In this document: in pieces, positions 32,565-62,011 of the stretch
Position numbering within the stretch: position 1 is the stretch's first letter
How the letters are laid out: every line of letters starts with the position of its first letter
Assembly: GCA_017852395.1 (NCBI GenBank)
Contig: JAFMLE010000002.1
Location: 39,424-103,423, forward strand
Reading direction: 5' to 3'
Source: Flavobacteriaceae bacterium
GTDB taxonomy: Bacteria > Bacteroidota > Bacteroidia > Flavobacteriales > Flavobacteriaceae
DNA: 64,000 bases
Translations under genes and position numbers: made by a program
Notes under the pieces: generated by a model
The model's database searches: none
The model's input: the letters and a program-made list of their open reading frames with translations, nothing else
What the model was told of the DNA's origin: nothing

Positions 32565-32604
32565 TATGTAAGTGTTAGGAAAAACCCAATAAAATTTTAA
32601 AATG

Positions 32605-32612
32605 CAAAAATA
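32605..32612 (-). promoter_or_regulatory. thrA -7 element TATTTTTG
   Basis: TAnnTTTG match on the minus strand, 40 nt upstream of the thrA ATG. Confidence 0.4.
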
Positions 32613-32655
32613 TTATAAAAACCAGTGGTGGTGAAATAATATCTTAGATATCTCC

Positions 32656-32692
32656 AAAAAAAATCGCCCGTTTGAAGGCGATCAAACGAGCG
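32656..32692 (-). terminator. clpC rho-independent terminator
   Basis: CGCTCGTTTGA/TCAAACGGGCG stem followed by A then T8 on the minus strand. Confidence 0.85.
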
Positions 32693-32713
32693 GATGCATT
32701 GAGTTTCAAAATT

Positions 32714-53082: not shown

Positions 53083-54366
53083 TTACCACAAGACATTTGT
53101 CATTTTTTGAGCAATCGCATCTAAAGCCAATTGTCCTCGGCTTCCCAAGTGCGTATGAGGTACTGTACGGTTGGGTTTGTAGGTTCCCTCAGCGATGTTT
53201 TTTTTCATTTTTAAATAAGCGTCTCTAAAAGACATACCGTCTTGTACCCAACCGTCTAGGGTGTCAACACTAAATAATAGATCGTATTTTGGGTCGTCCA
53301 GTAGCGTCTCTTTTATGTTGATTTTTTGAATGCAAAACTCAAAAATTGAAAGGCATTCTTTAATGTTGTTAATACCACTAATCAGTAACGATTTGGTCAA
53401 TTGCATCTCACGGTGATAACCGCTGGGGAGGTTGTTGGATAGCAAGATCATTTGATTGGGCAAAGCCTGAACTAGGTTGCACTTACCACGAATCAATTCA
53501 AATACATCGGGATTTTTTTTGTGGGGCATGATACTCGATCCCGTGGTGAGTTCATCTGGAAAACTAATAAAGCCAAAGTCCTGCCCCATATACAAACAAA
53601 TGTCCATGGCCATTTTTGACAATGTTGCTGCAATCATGCTTATGGCGATAGCCGTTATTTTCTCGACTTTGCCACGGCCCATTTGTGCGTTGACGACATT
53701 GTATTTTAGGGTGCTAAAACCCAGTGCAGCAGTTGTATATTCACGATCAATTGCAAAAGCACTCCCATAACCTGCAGCACTCCCCAAAGGGTTTTGATCG
53801 ACGATTTCATAGGCCGCTTTTACCATTTGCAAATCGTCAATAATTGCTTCGGCATAGGCCGAAAACCAAAGTCCAAATGAAGAAGGCATAGCGACTTGCA
53901 TATGTGTATAACCGGGCATTAGGTGGTCTTTATGCTTATGGGCCAATTTTAAAAATATGTCAAAAAGATTTTTGCTAAGCTTTTTAATTTGATTGAGTTC
54001 GTCCTTCAAATAGAGTTGAAGTGCTACTAGCACTTGATCGTTTCTTGATCGGGCTGTATGAATTTTTTTACCCAGATCTCCCAGTTTGTCAATCAAAAGA
54101 AATTCGATTTTAGAATGTACATCTTCAAAATCTGCTTCAATCGTAAAACGACCATCTTGGGCAATCTGTTCCAACTCTTTGAGTGCTGCAACTAAGACGT
54201 CCGACTCTTCGGGTGTCAAAAGGCCAATTTTGCCCAACATTTGCGCATGTGCAGCCGAAGCGATGCAATCGTATTTGGCAAGGTGTAAGTCCACCTCGCG
54301 GTCGTTACCAACTGTAAATTGATCAATATTTTTTAAGGCACCTTCGCCTTCTTGCCAAAGTTTCAT
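53083..54366 (-). CDS. argH: Argininosuccinate lyase
   Basis: GSSIMPHKKNPDVFELIRGK; VHSKIEFLLIDKLGDLGKKIHTARSRNDQV. Confidence 0.97.
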   Translation of the reverse strand: MKLWQEGEGALKNIDQFTVGNDREVDLHLAKYDCIASAAHAQMLGKIGLLTPEESDVLVAALKELEQIAQDGRFTIEADFEDVHSKIEFLLIDKLGDLGKKIHTARSRNDQVLVALQLYLKDELNQIKKLSKNLFDIFLKLAHKHKDHLMPGYTHMQVAMPSSFGLWFSAYAEAIIDDLQMVKAAYEIVDQNPLGSAAGYGSAFAIDREYTTAALGFSTLKYNVVNAQMGRGKVEKITAIAISMIAATLSKMAMDICLYMGQDFGFISFPDELTTGSSIMPHKKNPDVFELIRGKCNLVQALPNQMILLSNNLPSGYHREMQLTKSLLISGINNIKECLSIFEFCIQKINIKETLLDDPKYDLLFSVDTLDGWVQDGMSFRDAYLKMKKNIAEGTYKPNRTVPHTHLGSRGQLALDAIAQKMTNVLW

Positions 54367-54369
54367 AGG

Positions 54370-55425
54370 TCAAAGAATTTGTTCTAAAATATTTATATAA
54401 AGCGGTATCGCTTCTTCAATTTCGTGTATATATATAAACTCGTCAGCTTGATGCGAGCGTGTAGAATCGCCAGGACCGAGTTTTAGCGAGGGGCAAGTCA
54501 GTGCGGCCATGTCTGATAGGGTGGGCGAGCCATAGGTGGTTCTACCTAAAGCAACGCCGGCTTTTACCAACGGGTGATCTATAGGTATCGATGAGCTATT
54601 TAGGTGTAAGGATCGTGGTTGGAGTTGGCAAGGGGCATTTTTGCGCAGCAAATCATAGACCTCTTGATTAGAATAGCAATCATTGACACGAACATCCACT
54701 ACCATTTTGACTTCAGCAGGCACTACATTGTGTTGCGATCCCGCTTGAAGTTGGGTAACGGTCATTTTAACAGGGCCCAATTGGTTTGATGTTTTTTCAA
54801 ATCTAAAATTTTTGAACCAATCGATTATTTCGGGTACTTTGTAAATTGGGTTATCCTCGTTGGGGTGGGCAGCATGGCCAGAGGTACCCGAAATGGTAGC
54901 ATCGAGTACGACCAATCCTTTTTCTGCTATAGCCAGCTGCATTTGTGTGGGCTCGCCAACAATTGCCAAATCAACGGGAGGCAATTGCTTTAGGATCCCT
55001 CTAAGACTATTGGGACCAGCCGTTTCTTCTTCAACACTAGCGACAAAAATAAGATTGTATTTAAGGTCTTTTATGACATAAAAATGGGTAAAAGTAGCCA
55101 GTAAAGAAACAAGCGCACCGCCAGCATCGTTACTTCCTAAGCCGTATAGTTTACCTTCTTCAATGATCGGGTCAAATGGATCTTTGGTATATCCTTTATT
55201 TGGCCGTACCGTATCATGGTGCGAATTTAATAATAAGGTGGGTTTGTTTGAATCTATGGCGCTGTGCAACGCATAGACCGTATTTCCAATTCTATGATAA
55301 GGGATTTCGTAGCGATCAAACCACTCTATCAAACAAGCAGCAGTTGCTGTTTCTTCTCCCGAAAAAGAAGGGTTTTTTATTAGTTTTTTTAGCAAAAGGA
55401 TGCTTTGGGCAATCAATTCATTCAT
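54370..55425 (-). CDS. argE: M20 family N-acyl-citrulline/ornithine deacylase (ArgE-type)
   Basis: LLLNSHHDTVRPNKGY; YGLGSNDAGGALVSL; start MNELIAQS at 55425 preferred, overlapping the argB stop. Confidence 0.88.
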   Translation of the reverse strand: MNELIAQSILLLKKLIKNPSFSGEETATAACLIEWFDRYEIPYHRIGNTVYALHSAIDSNKPTLLLNSHHDTVRPNKGYTKDPFDPIIEEGKLYGLGSNDAGGALVSLLATFTHFYVIKDLKYNLIFVASVEEETAGPNSLRGILKQLPPVDLAIVGEPTQMQLAIAEKGLVVLDATISGTSGHAAHPNEDNPIYKVPEIIDWFKNFRFEKTSNQLGPVKMTVTQLQAGSQHNVVPAEVKMVVDVRVNDCYSNQEVYDLLRKNAPCQLQPRSLHLNSSSIPIDHPLVKAGVALGRTTYGSPTLSDMAALTCPSLKLGPGDSTRSHQADEFIYIHEIEEAIPLYINILEQIL

Positions 55426-56201
55426 AAGTTGGGTATTATCGTTGTATGCACTGTGGCTCCCTGCAGCATTTCTAACGAACCAATGTGTACAGCATGGACG
55501 TTTTGGTCGATGGCGTGAAAGCAATTGTCGAGTTTCGGAATCATTCCATCCGTTATAAGGTGTTCATTTTTTAGATTTTGATAGGTGTTAAAATCGATTT
55601 TTTCAATAATTGAATCCGGATTTTCACGATTTTTGAGCACCCCGTTTTGCTCGAAGCAATACCAAAGCTCTACGGTAAAAAAGTTGGCCATAGAAACGGC
55701 CAATGCTGCAGCAATACTGTCCGCGTTGGTGTTGAGTAGTTGGCCACTTCCATCGTGGGTCAACGCACAAAATACCGGTGTGATTTTCAAATTTTCCAAA
55801 AGTGTTCTAATTGCTGCAGAATCGACACTCGCGATATCTCCAACCCAACCAAAATCAATGGGTTTTGAAGTTCTTTTTTTGGATAAAATAAGGTTGGCAT
55901 CGGCGCCGCTCATTCCCATTGCATTACACTGCAAGGCTTGAAGTTTTGCAACGATGTTTTTATTGATTTTACCCGCATAAAGCATCGTAATCACAGCTAA
56001 TGTGTCTGCATCTGTACAACGTCGGCCATCGATCATTTTGACAGGGATATTGAGTTTTTCGGCCATAAGAGACGCTTCTTTTCCACCGCCATGGACTAAA
56101 ATTTTAAGGCCCTCTAATTCTGCAAATGCCTTGAGAAAAACCGCTAACCTCTCTTCATGCTCGATGACATTGCCACCTATTTTAACAACATTAAGCTTCA
56201 T
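55422..56201 (-). CDS. argB: N-acylglutamate kinase
   Basis: VVKIGGNVIE; KILVHGGGKEAS; VFCALTHDGSGQLLNTNADSIAAALA. Confidence 0.94.
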   Translation of the reverse strand: MKLNVVKIGGNVIEHEERLAVFLKAFAELEGLKILVHGGGKEASLMAEKLNIPVKMIDGRRCTDADTLAVITMLYAGKINKNIVAKLQALQCNAMGMSGADANLILSKKRTSKPIDFGWVGDIASVDSAAIRTLLENLKITPVFCALTHDGSGQLLNTNADSIAAALAVSMANFFTVELWYCFEQNGVLKNRENPDSIIEKIDFNTYQNLKNEHLITDGMIPKLDNCFHAIDQNVHAVHIGSLEMLQGATVHTTIIPNL

Positions 56202-57138
56202 CTAAAAATTTTTTAAGTATTGCTTGCGCAGAAAAGGTTCTGTTGTTGGCTTGCTCTAGTATCAAAGCCTGAGGACTCTCCAACACATCTTGATCAACCA
56301 CCACATTGCGTCGGACAGGTAAACAATGCATAAAATAAGCGTTGTTGGTCCACTTCATCTTCGTTGCTGACACTTTCCATATGTCGTCTGTTCTCAAAAT
56401 TTGGCCATATTGCTCAAAAGAACTCCAGTTTTTGGTATAGATAAAATCAGCTCCTTCAAAAGCTTGTTTTTGATCGTAAAGAATGGTAGCTTCTTTTGTA
56501 ATTTCTGGGTCTAAGGCATACCCTTCGGGATGTGTAATGACAAATTCTGCATCCATACGATGCATCATACGGACAAACGAATTGGCCACTGCCTGGGGCA
56601 GCGCTTTGGGATGTGGTGCCCAGCTAAGTACTACTTTTGGACGTGCCGTTTTTTGAAAGGTTTTGATGGTCAAAGCATCTGCTAAAGCTTGAAGTGGATG
56701 TGCGGTCGCACTCTCTAGATTGATAATGGGGATGCTGGCGTATTTTGCAAAGCTTCGCAAAACGACCTCTGCACGGTCCTTTTGTTTGTCCTCTAAGGAA
56801 GCAAAGGCTCGAACAGCAAGCACGTCAAAATATTGTGATAGGACACCTGCGGCTTCTTTTATATGCTCTGAGGTTGTGCCATTCATCAGCACACCATCTT
56901 CAAATTCTAATGCCCAACCTTCGTTGTTAAAATTCATCACGATGGTATGCATTCCCAAATTTTGAGCTGCCTTTTGTGTGCTGATACGGGTCCTAAGGCT
57001 AGGGTTAAAAAATAAGACCCCGAGTGTTTTGTTACGTCCTAAAGCGGTATGGGCAAACGGTTGCTTTTTTAGGGCGACCATTTCTTCGATAAGGGCATCA
57101 AAGTCTTGAAGATCGTCAAGTGTGATTAACTGTTTCAT
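56191..57138 (-). CDS. argF': N-acyl (acetyl/succinyl)-L-ornithine carbamoyltransferase (ArgF'-type)
   Basis: LFFNPSLRTRISTQKAAQNLG; ESATAHPLQALADALTIK; MHCLPVRRNVVVDQDV. Confidence 0.93.
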   Translation of the reverse strand: MKQLITLDDLQDFDALIEEMVALKKQPFAHTALGRNKTLGVLFFNPSLRTRISTQKAAQNLGMHTIVMNFNNEGWALEFEDGVLMNGTTSEHIKEAAGVLSQYFDVLAVRAFASLEDKQKDRAEVVLRSFAKYASIPIINLESATAHPLQALADALTIKTFQKTARPKVVLSWAPHPKALPQAVANSFVRMMHRMDAEFVITHPEGYALDPEITKEATILYDQKQAFEGADFIYTKNWSSFEQYGQILRTDDIWKVSATKMKWTNNAYFMHCLPVRRNVVVDQDVLESPQALILEQANNRTFSAQAILKKFLDEA

Positions 57139-58259
57139 AGGGCTTCTTTTAAAGCGGTAAAAAATTGTGCAATATGATTTTGTTGAATGGTCAATGGAGG
57201 TAATAAGCGTAATAGGTTTTTATTGCTACTGCCACCAGTCATGATGTGGTGATCGTATAGGAGTTTTTTTCGAAGCGGCCCCACCTCAAAATCAAATTCT
57301 AAACCGAGCATCAATCCTTTCCCTTTAATTTTTTTAACCTCAGGAAGTACTTTTGCACTTTCAAAAAAATAGGCCCCCATTTCTTGAGCATGTTCTTGAA
57401 GCTTTTCTTTTTCCAAAACTTCCAATACTGCCAATGCGGCAGCGCAAGCCAAATGATTGCCCCCAAAGGTGGTGCCAAGCAGGCCATAGGCTGCCTCTAT
57501 AGTAGGGTGTATCAAAATCCCTCCAATCGGAAAACCATTGCCCATTCCCTTGGCCATACTGATAATGTGTGGCGTAATCGAGGCGTGTTGATAGGCAAAA
57601 AACGCCCCCGTCCTACCGTACCCACTTTGTACCTCATCGGCGATGATTAACGCGCCGTATAGATTGCATAACTGTTCTAGTTGTTCTAAAAATTTAGTCT
57701 CAGGTTGATCCAAACCACCTACACCTTGAATCACTTCTATAATCACCCCCGCGACATCGCCTTTTTTCAACTCATTTTCGAGTTGCTGCGGGTCGTTAAA
57801 AGGCAAAAAAGTGACCGGATGATGGGCGTTTAGTGGAGCAACAATTTTGGGATTGTCAGTCACGGCAACCGCTGCACTGGTCCGTCCATGAAAGCTGTTC
57901 TGAAAAGCAATGATCCTACTTTTTCCAGTATAAAAAGAAGCCAGTTTTAGTGCATTTTCATTGGCTTCAGCACCACTGTTACATAAAAACAACTGATACG
58001 TATCCAGGCAAGACAGCTGCCCAAGTTTTGTGGCTAACGCTTGCTGCAATGGATTGATAATGGCGTTTGAATAGAACACCAATTGCTCCAGTTGATCTTT
58101 AATTCTACTTACAAAATGCGGATGCCCATGGCCAATTGAAACGACCGCATGCCCACCATAGAGGTCAAGATAAGCCTGGTTGGCAGCATCATAGACAAAG
58201 ACATCTGATCCTCGGACAGGCGTCAAGTCGTATAGTGGATAAACATCAAACAGTTTCAT
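57135..58259 (-). CDS. argD: Acetyl/succinylornithine aminotransferase
   Basis: FLCNSGAEANENALKLAS; IIADEVQSGYGRTGAFFAYQH; SMAKGMGNGFPIGG. Confidence 0.96.
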   Translation of the reverse strand: MKLFDVYPLYDLTPVRGSDVFVYDAANQAYLDLYGGHAVVSIGHGHPHFVSRIKDQLEQLVFYSNAIINPLQQALATKLGQLSCLDTYQLFLCNSGAEANENALKLASFYTGKSRIIAFQNSFHGRTSAAVAVTDNPKIVAPLNAHHPVTFLPFNDPQQLENELKKGDVAGVIIEVIQGVGGLDQPETKFLEQLEQLCNLYGALIIADEVQSGYGRTGAFFAYQHASITPHIISMAKGMGNGFPIGGILIHPTIEAAYGLLGTTFGGNHLACAAALAVLEVLEKEKLQEHAQEMGAYFFESAKVLPEVKKIKGKGLMLGLEFDFEVGPLRKKLLYDHHIMTGGSSNKNLLRLLPPLTIQQNHIAQFFTALKEAL

Positions 58260-59050
58260 GATTGGGCGATTTCATTAATTTTTTCATACGATTTAAGCAA
58301 CCCTTTGATTAGCGAGGAACTCAATCCTTGAAATTCCATCTCATTGAGCCCCGAAATGGTACAACCTTTAGGCGTTGTAACCTTGTCGATTTCTCTTTCG
58401 GGATGCGATGCGGTATTGACCAATAAACTTGCTGCACCAAGGCAGGTATGCACCGACATTTCGAGTGCAATTTGAGCATCAAACCCCATCTGAATCCCCC
58501 CTTGGGTAGTGGCGCGGATCATACGCATCCAAAAGGCGATGCCGCTAGAACACAAAACCGTTGCCGCTTGCATCAGCGCTTCATCAATTACAACCGTTTT
58601 ACCCATAAGTCCAAATAGTGCTTCAGCCACAGGTATTCGTTTTAGTCCCTTAGAATTGGCACAAAGACACGTCATCGATTTGCTTACAGCTATCGCGGTA
58701 TTGGGCATGGCACGTATGATGGAGTGCTCAGTGCCTAGTATGGATTCGATTTGATGGATTTTAAAACCTGTTGCTGTTGAAATAATTTGGTGTTTGTCGT
58801 GCAAAAACGGTTTGATTTCTTCCAACACTTTTTTTAAGTGATTGGGTTGAACCGACAAAATCAAGATATCAGCATTTTTTACCGCTTCCTCGTTTGAATT
58901 GGTCGTGTAAACTTTGGGAAAATCTTCCCAACTTTTGATTGTGCTCGCTTGACGTTTTGTTAAATAAAAAGTGGTGTATAAGTTATTATCTATAATACCT
59001 TTTGCGATACTAACTCCGAGATTTCCAGCTCCAATTATGGCAATTTTCAT
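58256..59050 (-). CDS. proC: Pyrroline-5-carboxylate reductase
   Basis: IAIIGAGNLGVSIAKGI; IIRAMPNTAIAVSKSMTC; TTPKGCTISGLNEME. Confidence 0.94.
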   Translation of the reverse strand: MKIAIIGAGNLGVSIAKGIIDNNLYTTFYLTKRQASTIKSWEDFPKVYTTNSNEEAVKNADILILSVQPNHLKKVLEEIKPFLHDKHQIISTATGFKIHQIESILGTEHSIIRAMPNTAIAVSKSMTCLCANSKGLKRIPVAEALFGLMGKTVVIDEALMQAATVLCSSGIAFWMRMIRATTQGGIQMGFDAQIALEMSVHTCLGAASLLVNTASHPEREIDKVTTPKGCTISGLNEMEFQGLSSSLIKGLLKSYEKINEIAQS

Positions 59051-59059
59051 ACGTTATTT

Positions 59060-60031
59060 TTAAAATACTGAAGGTTTTAAGTGCAACCCCAGATGTTCTT
59101 CAAGCCCTAGGATTAAATTGAGGTTTTGCAGCGCCTGACCTGCGGCTCCCTTGACAAGATTGTCAATAATACTGGTTATCAATAAAAAATCGTTGTGTTT
59201 GTGCAGATGCAAAATGCAGTTATTGGTATTGATAACTTGTTTTAGATGTATGGGATGTTTTGAGCGATGGGTAAACGGAGCCGTTGTATAAAACTGATCA
59301 TACAACGCCGATGCTTCTTCGACGGTTCCGTCAAATTGGGTGTACAGGGTTGCAAAAATGCCCCGTGTAAAGGGCCCCCTTTGGGGTAAAAAATGAACGT
59401 TTGCAGTGGCACCTACTTGAGCTAAAGTTTCTGAAATTTCTCCCAAGTGTTGATGTGTAAAAGGCTTGTACCAAGACAAGTTGTCGTTTCGCCAGCTAAA
59501 ATGACTGGTTTCGGACAATCCAACTCCCGCCCCTGTACTTCCGGTGGTGGCATTAACATGAATATCATGGTGCAACAGTCTTTCTTGTGCCAATGGCAAT
59601 AAGGCCAACTGAATTGCAGTAGCAAAACATCCAGGATTGGCAATCGATTTGGTGTTTTCTATGGCCGATTTGTTGATTTCTGGTAGGCCATAAACAAAGT
59701 TTCTGTGATTAAAATTCTGGTCTTCTTTTAAGCGAAAATCATTGCTCAGGTCGATAATGATCGTGTTTTCAGAAAATGAATGTTCCTGTAAAAAAGCCGC
59801 AGATTTTCCATGTCCCAAGCATAAAAAGAGGACATCGATGTCGGTGTTTATTTGATTTGTAAACTGCAACTCGGTTTGCCCTAAAAGTTCTGTATGGTGA
59901 TCAGTTAGTGCTGTTCCGGGTCGGCTGGTACTGTAAACAAAATCAATTTCGAGGGCGGGATGTCCCAAAATTAACCGTATGAGTTCTCCACCCGTATAGC
60001 CCGAGCCTCCTATGATACCTACTTTAATCAT
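59060..60031 (-). CDS. argC: N-acetyl-gamma-glutamyl-phosphate reductase
   Basis: VGIIGGSGYTGGELIRLI; IANPGCFATAIQLAL; HVNATTGSTGAG. Confidence 0.96.
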   Translation of the reverse strand: MIKVGIIGGSGYTGGELIRLILGHPALEIDFVYSTSRPGTALTDHHTELLGQTELQFTNQINTDIDVLFLCLGHGKSAAFLQEHSFSENTIIIDLSNDFRLKEDQNFNHRNFVYGLPEINKSAIENTKSIANPGCFATAIQLALLPLAQERLLHHDIHVNATTGSTGAGVGLSETSHFSWRNDNLSWYKPFTHQHLGEISETLAQVGATANVHFLPQRGPFTRGIFATLYTQFDGTVEEASALYDQFYTTAPFTHRSKHPIHLKQVINTNNCILHLHKHNDFLLITSIIDNLVKGAAGQALQNLNLILGLEEHLGLHLKPSVF

Positions 60032-61211
60032 TTTTTACTTTTATGGATTGATAAATTTTTTGTGCAGTAGCACTTACTTTAATAAACCCTTTGGCATCAT
60101 CTGCAGTCCATGACTTGTTCATTTCGCCGTAGGCACCAAATTGAGATTTCATCAAATCATTTTCAGATTCGATTCCGAGTAGTTCAAAACGATAGGGGTA
60201 AAGTTTGATGAAAACCGTTCCGCTGACCCGATTTTGACTACTTTCTAAAAAGGCTTCTATGTCGCGCATTACGGGGTCAAGATAGTTGCCTTCGTGGAGT
60301 TGCATTCCATAAAAATTGCTCATCTGTTCTTTTTGAAATTGTTGCCATTTGCTCATGGTGTGCTTTTCCAAAAGATGGTGGGCTTTAATCAATATTAGTG
60401 GTGCTGCAGCTTCAAAACCAACTCTACCTTTGATACCAACAATGGTGTCTCCGACATGGATATCCCGTCCGATAGCAAATTTGCTCGCAAGTGCTTGGAG
60501 CGCTTCAATCACTTTGATGGGAGGGTTTTGTTGGCCGTTGAGCCCTATAGCTTCACCTTTTTTAAAGCTTATGCTTATGTCTATTGGCTCGTTGTTTTCT
60601 AGTTGTGAGGGGTAGGCTTCATTGGGCAGTGCCTGGTGGGAGGTTAGGGTTTCTTTGCCACCTACACTGGTTCCCCAAAGCCCTTTATTGATCGAATATT
60701 GTGCTTTTTCCCAAGACATATGCACCCCTTGAGACTGCAAATACTCGATTTCTTCTTGACGGCTAATTTTTTCGTCTCTGATGGGTGTTATGATCGCAAT
60801 GTTTGGCGCCAGAATTTGAAAAATAGCATCAAAACGGACTTGATCATTTCCGGCTCCTGTACTTCCATGAACAATACCATCAGCGTTGATTTTTTTGGCG
60901 TAGTCTATCAATGCAATTGCTTGTACAATACGTTCTGCCGAGACCGATAGCGGATAGGTATTGTTTCGCAGTACGTTGCCAAAAATTAGGTATTTTATAA
61001 TATCATTATAAAACGTTTCTACGGAATCTACACATTCGTAAGAATGTGCGCCCATGTCCAAAGCACGTTGTTTTTGTTCGGCAATGGTTGCGGTGTCAAA
61101 GCCTCCAGTATTTATGGAAATAGCATGTACCTCATGATTTTCTTTGGCCAATTTTACCAAGCAATACGAGGTGTCTAAACCGCCACTGTAGGCGAGTACA
61201 AGTCTTTTCAT
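60024..61211 (-). CDS. argG: Argininosuccinate synthase
   Basis: VLAYSGGLDTSYCLVKL; GIVHGSTGAGNDQVRFD. Confidence 0.96.
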   Translation of the reverse strand: MKRLVLAYSGGLDTSYCLVKLAKENHEVHAISINTGGFDTATIAEQKQRALDMGAHSYECVDSVETFYNDIIKYLIFGNVLRNNTYPLSVSAERIVQAIALIDYAKKINADGIVHGSTGAGNDQVRFDAIFQILAPNIAIITPIRDEKISRQEEIEYLQSQGVHMSWEKAQYSINKGLWGTSVGGKETLTSHQALPNEAYPSQLENNEPIDISISFKKGEAIGLNGQQNPPIKVIEALQALASKFAIGRDIHVGDTIVGIKGRVGFEAAAPLILIKAHHLLEKHTMSKWQQFQKEQMSNFYGMQLHEGNYLDPVMRDIEAFLESSQNRVSGTVFIKLYPYRFELLGIESENDLMKSQFGAYGEMNKSWTADDAKGFIKVSATAQKIYQSIKVKND

Positions 61212-61816
61212 TTGGTTTTTTTTATAAATAAGGTGTTTTTGATTGATTTGAGTCTTTCGCCAACCTTTCGATTAAATTTTGATTTTTTGGTGTTGTTTTT
61301 AGGATCATAAAGCATGCCTGTACACAAACACATGGTGCGTTCGGTTCGGGTGAGTACATCAAAGTTTTTGCAGGTTTTGCAACCATTCCAAAACTCAGGA
61401 TCATCGGTTAGTTCGGAAAAGTGAACAGGTTTGTACCCCAATTCGTAATTAATCTTCATAACCGCCATGCCGGTGGTGATTCCAAAAATTTTGGCATCCG
61501 GAAATTTCTTTAGCGAAAGATCCAGTACCTTTTTTTTGATTTTTTTGGCCACTCCATGGCCTCTAAAATCGGGTGATACAATAAGCCCAGAATGCGCAAC
61601 ATATTTGCCATGTCCCCATACTTCTATATAACAAAACCCAACAAAAGTGTTGTCTTTGATGGCGATTACGGCATTTCCATTTTGCATTTTGGTGCGAATA
61701 TATTCGGGGGTTCTCAGCGCGATTCCAGTTCCTCGAACTTTGGCTGATGCATCAATACATGCTGCAATATCTGCGGCATATTGATAATGTGTTGCGTTAG
61801 CATTGGTTATTTCCAA
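61208..61816 (-). CDS. GNAT-family acyltransferase heading the arg operon (candidate N-acylglutamate synthase)
   Basis: GNAT motif A LIVSPDFRGHGVAKKIKKKVL; TTG start; overlaps argG start; C-terminal CKTC...CLC. Confidence 0.85.
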   Translation of the reverse strand: MEITNANATHYQYAADIAACIDASAKVRGTGIALRTPEYIRTKMQNGNAVIAIKDNTFVGFCYIEVWGHGKYVAHSGLIVSPDFRGHGVAKKIKKKVLDLSLKKFPDAKIFGITTGMAVMKINYELGYKPVHFSELTDDPEFWNGCKTCKNFDVLTRTERTMCLCTGMLYDPKNNTKKSKFNRKVGERLKSIKNTLFIKKTK

Positions 61817-61883
61817 CGTTTACTAAGTTGTTAATTAAAAAAAGTGAAATTTGATTGCGAACGAGTTGGACACACCTAACTCT

Positions 61884-61919
61884 AAAAAAGTACTACACCC
61901 CCAAGGGGCGGCGTGTAGT
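61884..61919 (-). terminator. Terminator-like (attenuator) hairpin in the arg operon leader
   Basis: Minus strand ACTACAC-(GCCGCCCCTTGGGG)-GTGTAGT then ACTTTTTT; U6 at 61889-61884. Confidence 0.8.
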
Positions 61920-61976
61920 GCTGCGTGACAAGGTCCTTAAAACCAAAGCATGCTTGTATGTGTACTTTTTTAACAT
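61893..61976 (-). CDS. Candidate arginine-rich leader peptide of the arg operon
   Basis: ATG TTA AAA AAG TAC ACA TAC AAG CAT GCT TTG GTT TTA AGG ACC TTG TCA CGC AGC ACT ACA CGC CGC CCC TTG GGG GTG TAG = MLKKYTYKHALVLRTLSRSTTRRPLGV*. Confidence 0.7.
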   Translation of the reverse strand: MLKKYTYKHALVLRTLSRSTTRRPLGV

Positions 61977-61980
61977 TAAA

Positions 61981-62011
61981 CAAATTAAGGGACATATATT
62001 TTGTAATGCAA
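61981..62011 (-). promoter_or_regulatory. Candidate arg operon promoter TTG-N20-TTAATTTG
   Basis: TTG at 62011-62009, TTAATTTG at 61988-61981 (7/8 match to TAnnTTTG), 20-nt spacer as for the tRNA-Ser promoter. Confidence 0.5.

Follow-up and report, generated by a model that had tools for sequence, protein, structure and literature searches.

Arginine genes are usually regarded as controlled by ArgR. The trp and his attenuators of Proteobacteria place a short leader open reading frame (ORF) upstream of a biosynthetic operon; strand 1 carries codons for the amino acid under control, the stop codon falls within or close to the loop between strands 1 and 2, and 1:2, 2:3, and 3:4 pairings overlap. 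The leader described here has counterparts of these features, that of 2:3 being only likely. Unlike them, this leader concerns arginine, has a 3:4 hairpin without a U-tract, and probably starts nearly leaderless; a sequence relation is not expected. With respect to Arg codons, the closest mechanistic parallel is the orf34/speFL leader of Salmonella speF, in which pausing at consecutive Arg codons alters RNA structure, although that leader is longer, precedes a decarboxylase gene rather than genes for arginine synthesis, and has Rho and RNase G as its outputs (PMC6386406). In F. psychrophilum, which belongs to the same family, leader-peptide attenuation, the kind of control proposed below, has been reported ahead of amino acid operons, with pheA and hisG named; the main text of that report names no arg element (PMC9723704).

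The leader lies within the window, by which we mean the whole 64,000-nucleotide (nt) stretch of Flavobacteriaceae DNA analyzed here, upstream of an operon with the gene order GNAT-argG-argC-proC-argD-argF'-argB-argE-argH (Table 1), in which argG and the argE-like gene score under the NCBIfam cut-offs. Its conserved layout consists of a probably near-leaderless ORF of about 27 codons ending in ...RRRP-stop, Arg codons placed in a first hairpin (H1), a spacer of about 12 nt, and a second hairpin (H2). Comparison of these sequences across the family makes it reasonably probable that the leader is an arginine-responsive, ribosome-mediated attenuator of the leader-peptide type that controls the arg operon.

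The GNAT protein encoded by the first gene is a candidate N-acetylglutamate synthase and matches only general acetyltransferase families. The operon also contains proC (pyrroline-5-carboxylate reductase; 58256-59050, minus strand), and the leader would therefore govern proline synthesis too.

Table 1. Features of the arg leader and its operon, by position in the window.
Feature	Position	Strand	Comment
Likely promoter: TTG (62011-62009), 20 nt, TTAATTTG (61988-61981)	61981-62011	minus	From sequence; one mismatch to TAnnTTTG
Leader ORF, MLKKYTYKHALVLRTLSRSTTRRPLGV-stop	61893-61976	minus	Equivalent Arg-ended ORF in 156/164 relatives
Leader start segment, AAAAAAGTAC	61962-61971	minus	Exact complement of 61893-61884, without family-wide conservation
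Leader Arg codons	14 (61937-61935), 18 (61925-61923), 22-23 (61913-61908)	minus	
H1 (strands 1:2), ACUACAC/GUGUAGU, CCCC/GGGG above GCCG bulge	61892-61919	minus	Fold of -15.5 kcal/mol
End of H1 and spacer/U6 ahead of H2, GTACTTTTTT	61884-61893	minus	GUACUU within it also matches the strand 3 loop
H2 (strands 3:4), GAGUU-A-GG-UGUGU-CC-AACUC	61863-61882	minus	Double changes in all six outer pairs, in both species sets
Strand 3, near-invariant H2 loop AGGUGNGUCC	61868-61877	minus	Candidate alternative partner of strand 2
G-poor unstructured stretch, H2 to first gene	61817-61862	minus	No U-tract directly 3' of H2
GNAT acetyltransferase, first operon gene	61208-61816	minus	Pfam PF00583
argG, argC, proC, argD, N-acetylornithine carbamoyltransferase (argF'), argB, argE-like, argH	53083-61211	minus	Pfam, NCBIfam

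Relatives were retrieved through the first gene, GNAT, and the complete arg operon was verified in the window only. Homologues of this gene were present in 132/201 and 271/400 of the Flavobacteriaceae genomes sampled (the two samples overlap), and upstream DNA was taken from about 190 genomes with such a homologue, as well as from 38 named records. One common element was found in the upstream regions of about 170 Flavobacteriaceae genomes. A model of H1 and H2 built from 98 upstream sequences matches 98/100 loci of the first set, which are mostly the sequences used to build it, and 77/79 loci of a second set, which is the fairer test; it also matches 32 of the 38 named records, some of them from the same genomes as the sets. 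The window's own genome has one clear match. Among named records, the closest is a Flavobacteriia metagenome-assembled genome (MAG) carrying the same locus as the nearest relative (L003). In a sample of the phylum, the sole match outside Flavobacteriaceae lay on the strand opposite a coding frame, in a genome of high GC content, and was taken as chance; the strict first-look filters of this search missed family members too, so that absence outside the family is not proven by it.

Covariation supports both hairpins. The covariation counts for H1 and H2 were reached in 0/500 shuffles in each of the two species sets; because the alignments had been fitted to the model, the counts lean its way, but slid controls fall well below. 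Within the family, H1 changes from CGCCC:GGGUG to CGCAC:GUGCG while the encoded peptide changes from RRP to RRT. The distance between the end of H1 and the GG of the H2 loop is 18 to 22 nt in 92/97 leaders of the first set and in 68/70 of the second. RNAalifold returned only 4 pairs on a MAFFT alignment, probably because the length of the H2 bulge varies. Two other pairings, between strand 4 and the GNAT start codon and, as a kissing contact, between the H2 loop and the Arg codons, were judged by eye, lacked consistent covariation, and were rejected.

An Arg-rich ORF, defined as having at least 2 Arg in its last 12 codons in the frame with the most Arg in that region, was present in 156/164 leaders, with its stop within H1 in 133 and between H1 and H2 in 23. 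Wherever the ORF was identified, this stop preceded H2; in the window, H1 holds Arg codons 22-23 as well as the stop codon. The interpretation in the earlier note is supported in so far as the leader ORF is conserved, with its Arg codons inside a hairpin 5' arm ahead of the arg operon. The third base of the conserved CGN codon that is left unpaired varies (T109/C38/A3/G1), which matches the prediction from coding constraint. An arrest peptide acting through Pro-stop is weakened as a candidate, since Pro becomes Thr and the stop shifts when H1 changes.

In the window, 4 nt separate the leader ATG from a box that has one mismatch to TAnnTTTG, and among relatives a perfect TAnnTTTG box ends 6 to 9 nt ahead of it in 26/47 leaders. 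The corresponding box of F. psychrophilum promoters is placed at -12 to -5 (PMC9723704). Positions 61981-62011 are likely to be a promoter whose transcription start would lie at or adjoining the leader ATG, and because of these box-to-ATG distances and the F. psychrophilum box position, the leader mRNA probably has little or no untranslated sequence before the ATG. Across the family, the region at -62 to -20 relative to the H1 end is better folded than its shuffles (mean z -0.84, standard error 0.11), with sequences that differ, and may hold an additional hairpin; the window itself shows no such fold signal there (z +0.48).

The earlier note had singled out a complement between the start of the leader ORF and the 3' base of H1 with its U-tract, and had proposed that the two pair as an antiterminator. 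The exact 10-nt reverse complement of AAAAAAGTAC (61971-61962) and GTACTTTTTT (61893-61884) is confirmed and reaches 11 nt with a flanking base. When the leader's first 66 nt were shuffled, a match of 11 nt arose in 0/1000 dinucleotide shuffles; the duplex energy was reached by 1.6% of 1000 dinucleotide shuffles, and leader and spacer of different species match over at least 9 nt in 0.14% of pairs. The complement thus exceeds what local base composition gives, but it was picked by eye and part of it is an A6/T6 pairing, which the earlier note had flagged as partly explicable by chance in AT-rich DNA. When the transcript 61976-61860 was folded, the A6GUAC:GUACU6 helix did form, with a probability of 0.96, but the upper stem of the hairpin still stood at about 0.5. 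In the minimum free energy (MFE) structure of this 117-nt RNA, the helix takes only the lowest hairpin pairs and the U-tract and encloses a shortened hairpin, so that the exclusivity of the two states is not strict.

As a conserved antiterminator, the pairing did not hold up. Complementarity between a species' own leader start and spacer was no better than in species-swapped pairs, at 4.87 versus 4.66 nt in one test (29/500) and 4.28 versus 4.35 nt in the other (369/500), and the pairing was rejected as a family feature. L003 keeps an 8-nt counterpart, AAATACTA:TAGTATTT, which carries a single G-C to A-U double change and forms a duplex not beyond its own shuffles (0.44). The A6GUAC:GUACU6 helix is at best an auxiliary element specific to the window or to a small lineage, and the proposed antiterminator is plausible only locally.

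The conserved alternative partner of the flagged segment appears to be the downstream segment 61877-61868 rather than the leader start. The spacer starts with Y-R-Y-U-U and, joined to the 3' arm of H1, reads GGGUG-YRYUU, which is complementary (G-U allowed) to AGGUG-N-GUCC in the H2 loop. This 2:3 register was noticed on the first set, where it pairs 78.9% of positions versus 60% with shuffled spacers (0/2000). In the second set, fetched later and thinned to 48, it pairs 78.3% versus 58.0 +- 2.7 for shuffled spacers (0/2000), with other registers at 66.7% or below, in shuffle tests that ignore relatedness and with second-set genomes that often share genera with the first set. Strand 3 barely varies, and 2:3 shows no true covariation. 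A comparison of own and swapped 2:3 duplexes in diverged leaders showed no preference for the own partner and lends 2:3 no support. In equilibrium folds without strand 1, H2 beats 2:3 in 75/94 leaders, and in the window 2:3 amounts to a weak pairing of GUACUU (61893-61888) with AGGUGU (61877-61872). We regard 2:3 as likely but not settled, and as likely that the leader recreates the strand logic of trp and his, with H1 as 1:2, H2 as 3:4, and a 2:3 alternative at weak energies.

Under this scheme, when Arg-tRNA is scarce, a ribosome would stall at the Arg codons of strand 1 and block H1; strand 2 (GGGUG plus YRYUU) would then pair with strand 3 (AGGUGNGUCC), preventing H2, and the operon would be transcribed. 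When arginine is plentiful, the ribosome would run on to the stop codon, inside H1 or just past it; strand 3 would be free to form H2, and expression would be reduced. The spacing of H1, 11-12 nt, and a U/G junction resembles a hairpin pause, which would synchronize polymerase and ribosome. More specifically, we tentatively raise the possibility of an uncatalogued class of Flavobacteriaceae arginine attenuator with trp-like strands and an H2 (UGNGU loop) lacking a U-tract, in which the off step would run through Rho or another factor.

With -15.5 kcal/mol and a U score of 4.33, H1 of the window with its U6 comes close to two terminator-like T8 hairpins of the same genome (U scores 5.16 and 5.76) and may be an intrinsic terminator. 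A ribosome covering its 5' arm at codons 18-23 could then suffice with no alternative pairing; modelled folds with the ribosome there abolish H1 (probability 0) and leave the A6GUAC:GUACU6 helix at 0.99. The earlier note had expected such masking for a stall anywhere in codons 14-23, which applies to codons 18-23 but not to codon 14, where the H1 stem remains at about 0.6 and the helix at 0.38. These folds assume a footprint and equilibrium, with kinetics outside the model. With the ribosome at the stop codon, however, neither H1 nor the helix forms, so this explanation needs prompt ribosome release for repression. It also leaves the conserved H2 unexplained, and a terminator at H1, as the earlier note had it, is seldom found in other family members: the U score after H1 averages 2.49 in the family (null 1.69) and is at least 3.5 in just 13/94 relatives, on which ground H1 was rejected as the family's general terminator. 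Simple blocking of this kind, confined to this lineage, strikes us as rather unlikely. The two-state switch of the earlier note, in which a ribosome stalled on Arg codons would let A6GUAC:GUACU6 act as antiterminator against an H1 terminator, can draw on the 11-nt complement unmatched by shuffles, on the helix formed with the ribosome at codons 18-23, and on the L003 counterpart with its double change. The missing family signal and the ordinary L003 duplex count against it, as does the state of the RNA at the time: from the known mechanism, the U-tract half of the pairing would still be within RNA polymerase at the termination decision, and with the U-tract withheld, six of the seven H1 stem pairs reach 0.97-0.99 and the outermost 0.79, while the helix drops to 0. 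A ribosome stalled on the Arg codons is moreover enough by itself to block the stem, which makes an antiterminator superfluous, and we find this switch improbable.

At H2, the U score that follows averages 1.72 in the family against a null of 1.69; thus, no U-tract marks 3:4 as an intrinsic terminator. The stretch after H2 is G-poor in the family (G 4.6%, C 16.6%, compared with 14.7% G in control genes, taken from the window only), has a C:G ratio of 3.6 versus 1.0 in controls, and is unstructured (z +0.27), properties that would be suited to Rho or just to the initiation of translation. H2 might serve as a binding site or a Rho-linked element, with a putative factor acting at its loop or at the G-poor stretch for the off step. 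The near-invariant loop, the lack of a U-tract, and the skewed C:G ratio favor this explanation, as does orf34-speF, a leader with Arg codons in which both Rho and RNase G are at work (PMC6386406). Yet the stretch is just about 45 nt long and may merely keep the start site unstructured; we judge this explanation unlikely.

Known RNA families did not account for the leader. No Rfam 15 family (T-box, riboswitches, amino acid leaders) matched the window at gathering score or six leader loci at E up to 1, and the Bacteroid-trp model (RF01692) gave 0 covariance-model matches in the window's own genome with a positive Bacteroides control. The GUCCY-hairpin motif (PMC2864571) is also a short Bacteroidetes hairpin motif with GUCC in its name; it is absent from Rfam and was compared by name, and in the arg element the base after GUCC is a purine in 97%. 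Neither a premature-terminator survey nor a structured-RNA survey mentions arginine, and we found no earlier description of the arg leader in the literature searched, beyond which other papers could hold one.

The same genome carries a second leader of related design upstream of hisG (L173), with a TAnnTTTG box, a short ORF (MQMKYIHTHLIFRAQAR) near the promoter, and hairpins ahead of a biosynthetic operon. It is likely a canonical attenuator and differs from the arg leader in ending with a hairpin and T8 directly before hisG, a tract absent from arg H2. Upstream of thrA-thrB-thrC (named by eye; 32565-32713, minus strand), there is only a terminator-like T8 hairpin, which presumably belongs to the gene before it; an obvious leader peptide is absent.

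For the striking local complement that drew attention to this locus, comparative tests can separate such a match from a conserved switch. Conservation of an Arg-codon leader throughout a large family that is common in the environment would point to a route to the control of arginine genes other than ArgR, in bacteria whose leader mRNA is probably nearly leaderless, and would open transcription-translation coupling in Bacteroidota to direct tests.
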